This document shows, piece by piece, positions 34,422 through 49,865 of a stretch of 64,000 nt of DNA. Numbering within the stretch: the first letter of the stretch is position 1; each line of letters opens with the position of its first letter. Under the pieces are notes generated by a model. The model was given only the letters and a program-made list of their open reading frames with translations. It made no database searches and was not told the origin of the DNA. Made by a program: the position numbers and the translations under genes. Location: positions 5,146,001 to 5,210,000 of the forward strand of contig NZ_CP129613.1 in assembly GCF_030486405.1 (NCBI RefSeq), in the 5' to 3' direction. The stretch is from Mycolicibacterium sp. HK-90. Its GTDB lineage: Bacteria; Actinomycetota; Actinomycetes; Mycobacteriales; Mycobacteriaceae.

Positions 34422-35096
34422 TCAGCGCGGCATGGCGATGCGCAGCCCGGCCAACATCACCTGCGCGTCGGCCATATAGGTCTCGTTGTTCGGTGAGGTG
34501 CTCTGCGTCATCGCGACCAGGTTCCACACCTTCGGCCCGAGGGGCACCATCACCGTCACCGCGGTCACGTAGATGGTCTTGCCGCCGTCGTCGGGAGGAA
34601 TCGTGTAGTTGGCCATCAGCGCCGGGAACCCGCAGATCTCGGCCGGCACCTGCGTGATGCCCTGTCCGCCACCGGCTTCGAACCCCTTGATGCTGTCATT
34701 GAGCAGATCTTCGGGTGACCGATTCCCGTCGGTGGCATCCGCGGTCGCCGCCGACAACGCCGGATTCGTCACGCCATCACTGAGCGAGACATTGCGGAGC
34801 ACCAGCCTGACTGCCCCCGTGGCCAATTCGGGAACCGGTTCCCAGCCCGGAGGCTGCGCGATGCGGACCCGGGGCTCGTCGGGTGCGAGACCGGACAGCT
34901 CGATCCACCGATCGGAATGCATCTGTTCGCACGGCTGGGCCTTATAGGTGGGCGCCGCGCCGGACGAGCTTTCCGAACCAGTCGATGGCGAGGACGGCTC
35001 AAACCCTGCCGTCGCGGTGCCCTCCGTGACCTGCGTGCATCCGCTGAGAACCACTGCGGCCCCCACAGCGACCACGCCCAGCCTCATGAACCTCAT
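34422..35096 (-). CDS. LpqN/LpqT-family lipoprotein
   Basis: The 224-residue protein has a lipoprotein signal with lipobox VLSGC (Cys20) and a Ser/Thr-rich linker. The Lpp-LpqN fold follows: PRVRIAQPPGWEPVPE, then PEDLLNDSIKGFEAGG, VPAEICGFPALMANYTI and TAVTVMVPLGPKVWNLV. It would be attached to the outer face of the plasma membrane. M. tuberculosis LpqN binds envelope and host proteins; the role of this copy is unknown. Its fold is shared with the extracellular part of the kinase at 39645. Confidence 0.88.
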   Translation of the reverse strand: MRFMRLGVVAVGAAVVLSGCTQVTEGTATAGFEPSSPSTGSESSSGAAPTYKAQPCEQMHSDRWIELSGLAPDEPRVRIAQPPGWEPVPELATGAVRLVLRNVSLSDGVTNPALSAATADATDGNRSPEDLLNDSIKGFEAGGGQGITQVPAEICGFPALMANYTIPPDDGGKTIYVTAVTVMVPLGPKVWNLVAMTQSTSPNNETYMADAQVMLAGLRIAMPR

Positions 35097-35130
35097 CGCC
35101 GACAGACACTACGCGAGCCCGCCCTGCACC

Positions 35131-35185
35131 GAGAGTGACGCAAACGTCGCTCCGCGGCGTGATCAGCGACGTCCGCGTCACTTTC
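35131..35185. repeat. Palindromic repeat GAGAGTGACGCAAACGTCG, copy 1
   Basis: The arms 35131-35150 and 35166-35185 are inverse complements with three mismatches and a 15-base loop. The right arm overlaps the 3' end of the AbiEi/DUF559-type gene. A second copy lies upstream of that gene. Confidence 0.75.
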
Positions 35186-36029
35186 GAGGCGGCTGCCAAC
35201 CTCGGGCGAGCAAAGCGGCCCGGGCCTGCGTCACGATCACTTCAGGGCGGTCTTCCTTGATGACATGGACAACGTGCCAGCCGAGTCGCTGCAATGCCCG
35301 GCTCACCACGACATCCAGCACGTACTGCCTTCGGTCCTTGAGATGCTGCTCACCGTCGTACTCGGCGCCGACCTTGAACTCTTCCCAGCACATGTCGATC
35401 CGGCGGACATACGAGCCGACCTCGTCGTGAACCACGTACTGCGTCGCGGGGCGGGGAAGGCCGGCGTCGATGAAAAGCAGCCGTAGCCACGTCTCCCGCG
35501 GCGACTCAGCACCGCCGTCGACGAGCGGGAGCGCCACCCGAAGACGTCGAAGCCCACGCGCGCCTGGATGACCCTTCGCGATCAGCATGACGTCTTCGAC
35601 AGCGAAAGGGCGTGCATTGGCAAGGGCATCCAACCGCTCGACCGCCTTGCCGCGTGGGAGGTGACGAGCGAGGTCGAACGCCGTGCGTTCCGGGGTGGCC
35701 ACGCGGATGCCGTCCATGGTCCACCACTCATCCACCTGCAGGGTTTCGCGTCGCACGATAAGGCCGGGTTGCCGCCTTGTCGCCGTGATGAGCTCGATGG
35801 GCGCGTTGTCACCGACCCATTGCGCGCCGTACATCGCCGACGCGGCCACCCCCGTGACCACAGCGCTGGGTGCGGCCAGGTGTGCGCCGAGAATGCGGTC
35901 CCGAAGCGACGGCTCATGCTGCCGCGGCACGTACACGCCGCGGTAGATCTGCCGATACCGGGCACGCAATTGGCCATTCGTCACGTGGCCCGCCGCGACA
36001 GCCTTCGCGCCGATGAAGGGAATCTGCAT
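35178..36029 (-). CDS. AbiEi-antitoxin-like / DUF559 nuclease-fold protein
   Basis: The 283-residue protein starts MQIPFIGAKAVAAGHVTNGQ and continues RARYRQIYRGVYVPRQHEPS, the N-terminal winged-helix type of AbiEi-like proteins. The C-terminal 100 residues look like DUF559, a Vsr-related PD-(D/E)XK fold: SYVRRIDMCWEEFKVGAEYD, GEQHLKDRRQYVLD, LGWHVVHVIKED. Candidate metal ligands are the Asp of RRID, the Glu of GAEYDG and the Gln-His after it. Mycobacteria carry many paralogues of unknown role, and no toxin gene adjoins it. Palindromes with the same arm sequence bracket the gene at 35131 and 36075. DNA cleavage is suggested by fold only. Confidence 0.78.
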   Translation of the reverse strand: MQIPFIGAKAVAAGHVTNGQLRARYRQIYRGVYVPRQHEPSLRDRILGAHLAAPSAVVTGVAASAMYGAQWVGDNAPIELITATRRQPGLIVRRETLQVDEWWTMDGIRVATPERTAFDLARHLPRGKAVERLDALANARPFAVEDVMLIAKGHPGARGLRRLRVALPLVDGGAESPRETWLRLLFIDAGLPRPATQYVVHDEVGSYVRRIDMCWEEFKVGAEYDGEQHLKDRRQYVLDVVVSRALQRLGWHVVHVIKEDRPEVIVTQARAALLARGWQPPRK

Positions 36030-36074
36030 GTGTACTTGGACGCAGCGGCGTCCTCTATGGCTCCCTACGACACC

Positions 36075-36129
36075 GAGAGTGACGCAAACGTCGTCCGCAG
36101 CGCCGCGGGACGACGTCTGCGTCGCAGTC
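36075..36129. repeat. Palindromic repeat GAGAGTGACGCAAACGTCG, copy 2
   Basis: Arms 36075-36096 and 36108-36129 are imperfect inverse complements with an 11-base loop. The first 19 bases of the left arm are identical to copy 1. It lies 46 bp upstream of the AbiEi/DUF559-type start. Confidence 0.75.
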
Positions 36130-36161
36130 GGCGCAAATCAGCGCAGTCGGCGCAAATCAGC
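36124..36161. repeat. 19-bp tandem duplication at the 3' end of the VWA gene
   Basis: GCAGTCGGCGCAAATCAGC occurs twice head to tail (36124-36142 and 36143-36161). The second copy covers the stop codon of the VWA gene. Confidence 0.9.
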
Positions 36162-38145
36162 GCCGACGCGAATGCAGATAGTCGCCGACCACGGCCGCGC
36201 CCAGGCCGTCGAGATCGGGGACCACCACGCGCCCCTGCACGCGCCGGGCCACCTGATCGATGAAACGGGCCAGCCCCGGATCGGAACCCAGCCGGAAGAT
36301 CGTCACCTGCGCGCCGAGGCGGGCCACCTCGTCGAACCCACGCACCGTGTGGGCGATGGTGCGCGGGTGTGGCGGGTAGTCGAAGAACACCTCAGACCCG
36401 TGACCGTCACCGAAGTCCTCAAGGTGCGCGGTGGGCTCACCATCGGTCACCACGAGCACGACTGGCTGGGCGTTGGGATGACGACGCAGATGCCGGGTGG
36501 CCAGTGCCAGCGCATGGTGCAGATTGGTGCCCTGCTCGTACACACCTTCCAACCCGGTCAGCTCGCCCGCGGTCACGGTGCGGGCATAACGGCCAAAAGC
36601 GATGATCTGCAACTCATCTGAGCGGAATCGAGTGCTCACCAGATGGTTGAGGGCCAGCGCGGTGCGCTTCATCGGCAGCCAGCGGTTCTCCATCACCATG
36701 GAGAACGAGGTGTCCACCAGCAGCGCCACACACGCCTGGGTGCGGGTCTCCGTCTCGGAGATCTCCACGTCCTCGACCGCAAACCGAATCGGCCGCTCGG
36801 CAACGCCCGTACCGGCTTGGCGCAGCACGGCATTGGTCACCGTGCGGGTGACGTTCCACGGCTCGGTGTCACCGAACTGCCACGGCCGCGTCGCCCCGGT
36901 CAGCTCCCCGGCCGCACCGGCCCGGCGGGTGTCCCGCTCGCCGTGCCGACCCGAAAGTTGTTGCGCCACATCACGCAACGCGGTCTGTCCGAGCTGGCGC
37001 ATGGCCTTCGGCGACAGCCGCCACTGCCCATCGGAGCCGCGGTCGATGAAGCCCTGGTTCACCAGGGCCTTCTCAAGCTCGGACAGGGTGCGGGCATCGA
37101 CCGCGGCGTCCGCCCCGAGCTGGCGGGCCAGCGATTCGAGGTCGACGTCGTCCATCGATGCTCCGGCGTAGCTCTGCGACAGCGCATCGGCCAGCTGCTC
37201 GAGCTCGGCGATGTCGGACATCGCCTGTGCACCCTCCCCCATGCCCAACGGGTCACCGCCCGAGAACCGCTCCGAACCGGTCCAGTCCTCTCCGGGCCGC
37301 GCAGATTGTAGGTGCGCATCGAGCCGGTTGAGCGCATTCATCAACGACGGCGAGCCAAAGGCCTGCTGTGCCAGCGAATCCAGCTCGGCACGCTGCTCGG
37401 CTGAGAGGCTGTTCCGGAACCGTTGTGCGGCGGCGGCCCGTTGCGCCAGCGAGTCCAGCAACTCCTCGATGTTGCGCGGCTTCTCCGGGAAGAACTCGCC
37501 GTGCTTGTCCATGAACTGCTGGAAGTCCTGCGGGGTGTCCTCCCCGCGAGCATGCTTGTCCAGCAGATCGTTGAGGTCGTCGAGCATGTCGTTGACCCGC
37601 TGCCGGTCTTCGTCGGTGGCGTTCTCCAACGCCTCCTTCATGCCGGCGAAACGCTGATCCAGCATCTCCCGGCCCAGCAGATCCTTGATCTCGTCGTACT
37701 TCTGCCGCGCCTCGGGGCTACGCCAGTCGTAGTCGGCGAGCTCCTGCACCGCCTTGGCCGGTGACGGCGAGAGCGCGTCGAGCTGCAGTTCGCCGAACCG
37801 CGCGTCGTCGTCGAGCGCGCGGGCCAGTTCCTTGCGCTCGGCCAGCACGGCCTCGTCGAGCAGCTTCTTGATCTCCTGCAACGTGCCGTCGAGGTTGTGC
37901 CGCTGCAACAACTCTCGACGTTTCCGGTTGGCCTCGGCGGCCAGCCGGTCAGTGCCACGCATTCCCTCGGTGCCGCGCCGCATCAACTCCGAGAGGGCAC
38001 GCCGCGGTGAGCTGCCCTCCATGACGCTCTGACCGATCTGCTCAAGCGCATCGCGCAGATCGATCGGCGGCGCCAGCGGGTCGGGGCCACCGGTGTACCG
38101 CGAGTACCGCGAGGTGTGCCCGTGAGCCCGACCGGGATCAGCCAT
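36157..38145 (-). CDS. VWA-domain protein paired with MoxR ATPase (Rv0959-like)
   Basis: The 662-residue protein has a long helical, charged N-terminal half (residues about 30-300, rich in Glu, Arg and Leu, for example EEAVLAERKELARALDDDAR-like stretches). A C-terminal von Willebrand A domain follows, with the MIDAS motif DTSFSM near residue 470 and later TDGEPTAHL. Such proteins work with MoxR AAA+ ATPases to remodel or metallate partners. The start overlaps the end of the ATPase gene by 8 bp, so the pair is coupled. In M. tuberculosis the matching pair is Rv0959/Rv0958. The client is unknown. Confidence 0.88.
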   Translation of the reverse strand: MADPGRAHGHTSRYSRYTGGPDPLAPPIDLRDALEQIGQSVMEGSSPRRALSELMRRGTEGMRGTDRLAAEANRKRRELLQRHNLDGTLQEIKKLLDEAVLAERKELARALDDDARFGELQLDALSPSPAKAVQELADYDWRSPEARQKYDEIKDLLGREMLDQRFAGMKEALENATDEDRQRVNDMLDDLNDLLDKHARGEDTPQDFQQFMDKHGEFFPEKPRNIEELLDSLAQRAAAAQRFRNSLSAEQRAELDSLAQQAFGSPSLMNALNRLDAHLQSARPGEDWTGSERFSGGDPLGMGEGAQAMSDIAELEQLADALSQSYAGASMDDVDLESLARQLGADAAVDARTLSELEKALVNQGFIDRGSDGQWRLSPKAMRQLGQTALRDVAQQLSGRHGERDTRRAGAAGELTGATRPWQFGDTEPWNVTRTVTNAVLRQAGTGVAERPIRFAVEDVEISETETRTQACVALLVDTSFSMVMENRWLPMKRTALALNHLVSTRFRSDELQIIAFGRYARTVTAGELTGLEGVYEQGTNLHHALALATRHLRRHPNAQPVVLVVTDGEPTAHLEDFGDGHGSEVFFDYPPHPRTIAHTVRGFDEVARLGAQVTIFRLGSDPGLARFIDQVARRVQGRVVVPDLDGLGAAVVGDYLHSRRR

Positions 38146-49594: not shown

Positions 49595-49651
49595 CGAGAT
49601 CAACGCCATGGTCGTAATAGTTCGAGGGGAACGACCATGGCGTTGATCTCG
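49595..49651. repeat. Palindromic repeat, GCCATGGCGTTGATCTCG family, copy 2
   Basis: Two perfect 21-bp inverted arms (49595-49615 and 49631-49651) enclose 15 bases. The core GCCATGGCGTTGATCTCG is shared with the copy at 42601. It begins 20 bp after the LLM gene. Confidence 0.9.
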
Positions 49652-49772: not shown

Positions 49773-49798
49773 GCGTGTCGGAATCTCCCGGCGACATG

Positions 49799-49844
49799 TG
49801 ACCTCGAAACCCGATATCGCAGGTGATATCAGGTTTCTAGGTCA
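49799..49844. repeat. Palindromic repeat, GATATCGCGTTTCGAGGTC type, copy 2
   Basis: TGACCTCGAAACCCGATATC (49799-49818) and 49825-49844 are inverse complements at 18 of 20 positions, with a 6-base loop. It is related to 23575-23634 and lies just before the end of the thiolase-like gene. Confidence 0.8.
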
Positions 49845-49865
49845 TATATCGCCGCGGAGGCCCTG

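Follow-up and report, generated by a model that had tools for sequence, protein, structure and literature searches.

In this work, a gene of the AbiEi/DUF559 type and the two palindromes that border it were analysed in Mycolicibacterium sp. HK-90. They lie in a stretch of 64,000 nucleotides (contig NZ_CP129613.1, positions 5,146,001 to 5,210,000; the window), which is part of a genome of 6.49 Mb in one contig, here called G000. Bracketing by matching flanks is real and general for this gene family, and it was found class-wide. Judged by sequence comparison, the palindrome type depends on the protein lineage, even between unrelated sites. We hypothesize that the gene and its two palindromes probably form one cassette, whose protein probably recognises its own palindrome and would cut or nick it, the palindrome and at times the cassette being probably copied to new intergenic sites. 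The cassettes of the family are likely self-spreading units. The sequence-based support comes from the bracketing, the dependence of type on lineage, the unit edges in the clearest alignments, dispersed palindromes away from the genes (solos), and absences of the size of the element. A preliminary description of the window had proposed a likeness to repetitive extragenic palindromes (REP) and their RAYT proteins, with gene and palindromes moving as a unit or the protein recognising the palindrome. This proposal is supported, and the tests suggested along with it came out mostly in its favour.

Bracketing of the gene family by matching flanks

The two hairpins reported to flank the gene are present as 57-bp units in direct mutual orientation (Table 1). 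The identical stretch that they share had been given as 19 bases, which is an underestimate, as 23 bases (CACCGAGAGTGACGCAAACGTCG) are common to both. When up to 3 mismatches are allowed, the window contains the 19-mer 3 times, where 0.02 occurrences would be expected. The arms of each unit pair at 20 of 28 dyad positions, and folded as single-stranded DNA the palindromes have z values of -3.8 to -4.2 against shuffles. The 3' palindrome overlaps the end of the gene as described, with the TGA stop codon (35178-35180) inside it; the distance of the other palindrome from the start codon is 44 bp, not 46 bp. No T-run terminator was found when looked for at the palindromes, and the two matches to known RNA families were both far under the gathering scores. 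The outer arm of the 5' palindrome coincides in part with a 19-bp tandem repeat of 2.2 copies (36123-36163).

G000 carries 10 genes of the family, the window gene included, and printing of their flanks revealed palindromes on both sides of most paralogues, with arms that are unlike between paralogues. Flanks were counted as matching at a local left-right score of at least 14, the thresholds being our own choice. The 120 mycobacterial loci compared comprised 10 from G000, 30 from 20 same-genus genomes and 80 named mycobacterial loci; these are best matches and no random draw (10 of 10 own, the best 30 of 194 and the best 80 of at least 523). Matching flanks were found at 88 of the 120 loci (9/10, 22/30 and 57/80, respectively) and at 5 of the 137 other genes taken from a 400-kb stretch of G000, while swapped pairs gave 19/712 and shifted positions 15/389 (2.7-3.9%). 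With a score of at least 18, the counts were 72/120 for family loci and 0/137 for the other genes. These control genes were open frames of 200-450 amino acids with high third-position GC, and the family gene of that stretch is absent from the ten top scorers.

The nine bracketed genes of G000 represent nine types: the top score among their 36 pairs was 11, and none reached 14. Thus, no single 19-mer lies beside all of them, and one palindrome common to all paralogues is ruled out. The enrichment of palindromes near DUF559 paralogues, proposed as a check in the preliminary description, was borne out for matching flanks and failed for one common 19-mer. At the 72 loci with a score of at least 18, median positions are -99 to -43 from the start codon for the 5' element and -7.5 to +47 from the stop codon for the 3' element, which covers the stop codon in 38 of them; the layout in the window is typical of these loci. 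The flank match is direct at 53 and inverted at 35 of the 88 loci. The paralogue L007 (G000 4739065-4739847) has an apparent frameshift near its C-terminus, and related imperfect palindromes, missed by the flank score, are still visible by eye in its flanks. Beside one paralogue, at L010 1169-1493, there is a REP-array-like tandem array of four 82-bp units with a palindrome in each.

Among 118 genomes sampled from the class, 87 carry the family. Outside the genus, 20 of 25 loci had matching flanks, compared with 13 of 600 swapped pairs. Each of the 25 loci is from a different genome, and 23 other genera are represented, after five own-genus loci of an initial 30 had been set aside. At L320, L322 and L323, which belong to other genera, the flank match is a repeat array and no single clean palindrome.

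Palindrome type, protein lineage and predicted fold

Cognate pairing was tested by matching left elements against right elements from other loci with unlike outer flanks. This test and the residue analysis below cover the 88 flank-matched loci and leave out the other 32 of the 120; the locus pairs are not independent, as the 88 loci fall into 41 site clusters. Elements matched in 14 of 24 pairs with proteins 70-80% identical, in 7/34 at 65-70%, in 14/105 at 60-65%, in 5/259 at 55-60% and in 11/3308 below 55%. At the sdhB site, the gene is present in four close relatives (G000, G049, G020 and G021). The proteins of G000 and G049 are 80% identical and have one palindrome type, those of G020 and G021 are 83% identical and have another, and the identity between the groups is 73-76%. 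Thus, palindromes and protein changed together while the site remained constant. At this one site, the gene of the three relatives is 73-79% identical to the G000 copy, whereas the flanking DNA is 92-94% identical. Furthermore, both palindromes of one gene switch jointly with unchanged flanks in L046 compared with L048.

The suggestion that gene and palindromes form a unit was upheld by the clearest alignments of cassettes from different sites (L064/L132, L132/L145, L058/L071 and L048/L051), in which homology covers both palindromes and what lies between them and breaks off at their outer edges. The edges are fuzzy in several alignments (L053/L055, L118/L120 and L105/L134). The alignments cover 16 of 18 pairs, which were selected for similar elements and dissimilar outer flanks.

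A high-confidence prediction assigns the protein an AbiEi-like DNA-binding module with a fused Vsr/homing-endonuclease-like domain. In the AlphaFold2 model (predicted local distance difference test, pLDDT, 96.8; predicted template modelling score, pTM, 0.91), the two folds (residues 1-171 and 176-278) fill nearly the whole chain of 283 amino acids according to structure comparison. The predicted structure agrees with the earlier assignment to an AbiEi/DUF559-type gene with a Vsr-like fold; the Pfam matches supporting this call are under the curated cut-offs, and the AbiEi models of PADLOC match the protein at 1e-7. The Vsr-like domain has the predicted catalytic fold of Vsr-like or EDxHD-type homing endonucleases. 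Among 61 proteins, its residues E179 and D212 are invariant, and E223, D225 and H229 are at least 90% conserved. No HuH/tyrosine transposase domain was among the Pfam matches up to E 10 or the NCBIfam matches up to E 1, and a PHROGs search gave no match. The eight residues that best track the palindrome type are at positions 24-29 and 73-85, and tracking is better for residues 1-40 (area under the curve 0.80) than for the nuclease domain (0.65). The ratio of nonsynonymous to synonymous substitution rates (dN/dS) of the window gene against three relatives is 0.17-0.21, with dS above 1, and in eight pairs of relatives it is 0.11-0.21, with dS from 0.77 to 1.77. The two genes that adjoin the window gene belong to lipoprotein-like and VWA families, and neither has a match to the DUF1814 toxin in Pfam or NCBIfam.

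Table 1. Positions of the gene, its palindromes, domains and neighbours in the window.
Feature	Position	Strand	Remark
AbiEi/Vsr-like family gene	35178..36029	minus	283 aa; open reading frame call, AlphaFold2, dN/dS
3' (downstream) palindrome, 57 bp	35130..35186		spans the stop codon of the gene
5' (upstream) palindrome, 57 bp	36074..36130		44 bp ahead of the start codon; orientation as in the 3' unit
23-bp identical direct repeat, copy 1 (left arm)	35127..35149	+	
23-bp identical direct repeat, copy 2 (left arm)	36071..36093	+	
Residues 1-171	35517..36029	minus	predicted AbiEi antitoxin-like fold, N-terminal DNA-binding part
Residues 176-278	35196..35504	minus	predicted Vsr/homing-endonuclease-like domain
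Lipoprotein-like neighbour past the 3' palindrome	34422..35096	minus	weak DUF3558 / LpqN matches
VWA-domain neighbour past the 5' palindrome	36157..38145	minus	matched in 58/60 genus genomes

Solo palindromes and differences between relatives

The palindrome type of locus L014 has 14 copies in G000, of which two flank its gene and 12 are solos, 10 copies in G049 (two at its gene), 5 in G020 and 2 in G021; it was not found in four more distant genomes. Copies per genome were tallied from the result rows with strands merged. The aligned solo copies have sharp edges and unrelated flanks. Arm pairing is kept in 25 copies, with 19 cells altered on both sides compared with 7.3 in shuffles (0 of 500) and 2-9 in slid alignments, although such shuffles ignore relatedness. 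In the distant genome G131, at least 40 copies of the L326 type were counted, of which two flank its gene and at least 38 are solos; these are lower bounds because 40 of 94 candidates were scored. Three further genomes of that genus have it at 24, 13 and 4 places, and in two of them a copy adjoins a family gene (G099 C154 and G168 C133); none was found in three other genera. As for the window's own type, its REP-like dispersal in G000 is weakly true (2 degraded solos), G049 has five solos, and 7 of the other 58 genomes have one weak match each. At the 27 solo loci checked, there was no family gene within 1.5-2 kb. Mechanical reading frames placed 12 of 19 solos of G000 and G049 between converging frames, with a stop codon at most 16 bp away, and the same position was found for 2 of 10 L326-type solos from four genomes.

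Some further palindromes were observed. A 57-bp unit of like build (CGAGATCAACGCCATGGTCG...CGACCATGGCGTTGATCTCG) is at 49595-49651 of the window, with arms that by eye are similar to those at G000 383985, and another strong imperfect palindrome (49790-49853) is about 140 bp from it. Recurrent solos with GAGCAGACGC-like arms are located at G000 133595, 192914 and 362236 (L216-L235), at L164, L204 and L210, and in other genus genomes.

Empty sites for the window gene were located with the VWA gene as an anchor, and such sites, which had been called for at the outset, do exist. In G020 and G021, the lipoprotein-like gene directly follows the VWA gene, and the family gene is missing. There is no palindrome either, save a 16-base stretch in G021 of which 14 bases agree with one arm, and which may be a scar or chance. 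G049 retains a remnant, namely a short in-frame piece of the 3' part of the gene together with a palindrome. At the rpsL site, G000 has the arrangement palindrome-gene-palindrome, and G021 has a single palindrome and no gene between the same outer flanks; the direction is not polarised. The G049 locus at this site (L157) has an L014-type solo and another left neighbour, and G000 and G021 hold a different type there. By eye in the printed flanks, L047 lacks the 5' element that L048 has. The G000 solo at 3917237 is absent from the same gap in three relatives, the gap itself having diverged. Another solo is common to G000, G020, G021 and G049, and the corresponding gap in G011 is about 50 bp shorter and without the element in a poor alignment. 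None of these presence and absence cases is polarised with certainty.

Known systems and rival explanations

The established example of short palindromes that are scattered through genomes and linked to a gene bordered by the same palindromes is that of REP and RAYT. According to the literature, a RAYT locus is flanked by two REPs, its gene evolves fast, the palindromes are preserved, and there is coevolution as well as a correlation between gene and copies (PMC2817692, PMC8266576, PMC3733652). These published traits are found here to the extent given above, the dispersal being weak for the window's own type. Like a REPtron (PMC2817692, PMC8266576), the gene is bordered by its own palindromes, solos are dispersed, and protein and palindrome types change together; moreover, the gene evolves faster than its neighbours, and the palindromes are kept through paired changes. 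On the other hand, RAYT is a HuH tyrosine enzyme, whereas an AbiEi plus Vsr-like fold is predicted here. The palindromes have about 57 bp (about 73-87 bp in G131) instead of 20-50, one genome holds nine bracketed genes with nine types, and the GTAG tag is not consistent: GTAG or CTAC was found at most 10 bases away in 1 of 25 L014-type copies and at one of the two window elements. The likeness seen in the preliminary description thus holds for the bracketing and falls short of a full match, given the HuH domain that was not found and the two degraded solos of the own type. Because there is neither a detected HuH domain nor a consistent GTAG, the system was not filed as a REPtron member.

The resemblance to other systems is partial. 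AbiEi antitoxins of the AbiE type IV toxin-antitoxin system and Rv2827c (PMC7319586) share the predicted fold of residues 1-171, and AbiEi proteins bind inverted repeats; here, however, a nuclease-like domain is fused, neither neighbour is a DUF1814 toxin gene, and the palindromes are on both sides of the gene and dispersed. I-Bth0305I and Vsr-like nucleases (PDB 3r3p and 1cw0) share the C-terminal domain fold and the conserved acidic residues, but the DNA-binding module is unlike theirs and no intron or intein context was seen around the gene. In IS200/IS605, palindromes also border the coding sequence, but with a HuH transposase (PMC8266576), of which the Pfam scan found none here. A search of titles and abstract openings, with most subscription journals and bioRxiv outside its scope, found no DUF559/AbiEi-type genes bracketed by cognate palindromes and no REP-like systems of mycobacteria, which leaves their absence unproven. 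As candidates for cargo, phages gave no match, either in the phage collection or in viral_contigs (an exact-pattern scan that covers close relatives only), and the four matches in the plasmid collection were all below 60% identity.

We hypothesize that the N-terminal AbiEi-like domain would read its own palindrome, as a duplex dyad or an extruded hairpin, and that the Vsr/homing-type nuclease domain would cut or nick it. Repair of the cut from another copy would then put a palindrome, or occasionally the complete cassette, into a new intergenic position, a scheme akin to the one put forward for RAYTs. Several points weigh against this spreading by the protein. Its binding, cutting and movement are inferred, and neither a target-site duplication nor a cut site was recognised. 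The flank score is below 14 at 32 of the 120 loci, including the own paralogue L007, and the window's own type has just the two degraded solos in G000. Many solos stand directly after stop codons, where a terminator role alone would retain them. Template switching can perfect palindromes without selection. Genomes that carry L014-type copies and genomes that lack them differ in relatedness as well, and the five solos of this type in G020 and two in G021 occur in genomes whose own sdhB-site gene is of another type, so a copy can be older than its cognate gene or remain after it.

The main rival is a homing-type cycle of a selfish gene, which is rather unlikely. The solos would be the targets, the nuclease would cut an empty palindrome, repair would insert the gene with a second palindrome, and recombination between direct palindromes would restore the solo state. 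However, the rpsL pair is not polarisable, no occupied counterpart was seen for the remaining solos, related cassettes stand at sites without flank similarity, and in 35 of 88 bracketed loci the flank matches are inverted and not direct. Autoregulation without protein-driven mobility would make the palindrome an operator for the AbiEi-like domain, the downstream copy a terminator, and the dispersed copies terminators or operators. It would agree with AbiEi and Rv2827c binding inverted repeats in their own promoter (PMC7319586), with the position of the 5' element before the start codon, and with the 12 of 19 solos between converging frames. Nevertheless, we consider it unlikely: the L326-type solos are so placed in only 2 of 10 cases, a search for a T-run terminator at the palindromes was negative, and autoregulation leaves unexplained the matching copy over the 3' end, the sharp elements with unrelated flanks, the element-sized absences and the at least 38 dispersed copies. 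Very improbable is a passive unit whose only means of spread are horizontal transfer and homologous recombination among copies, with the palindromes drifting along with the gene by linkage. The common history of palindrome and protein and the sdhB-site orthologues, which differ in both alike, would fit it, but not the joint switch of both palindromes between constant flanks in L046 and L048, the solos that are far from any gene and still common by type, or the clustering of type-tracking residues in the DNA-binding part.

By spreading its own palindrome, the system would act as an equivalent of the REPtron in function, built on an unrelated enzyme. Of the HuH superfamily studied, only subclass 1.1 is reported from the sampled Actinobacteridae (PMC6006769). 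It seems an even call to us that actinomycetes have their own palindrome-spreading AbiEi-Vsr nucleases, not related to HuH, each of which would use its AbiEi domain to read a palindrome of its own (about 57-87 bp) and would copy it, and sometimes the whole cassette, across the genome. If so, the colonisation of genomes by palindromes arose more than once, here with an unrelated enzyme, and many short palindromes between actinomycete genes could find an explanation. The DUF559/AbiEi-type genes gain a testable role, and the numerous naturally occurring combinations of a protein with a long palindrome lend themselves to the study of specificity change. The nine pairs of one genome with nine specificities would then offer a ready-made natural set of nucleases, each with its own long target.
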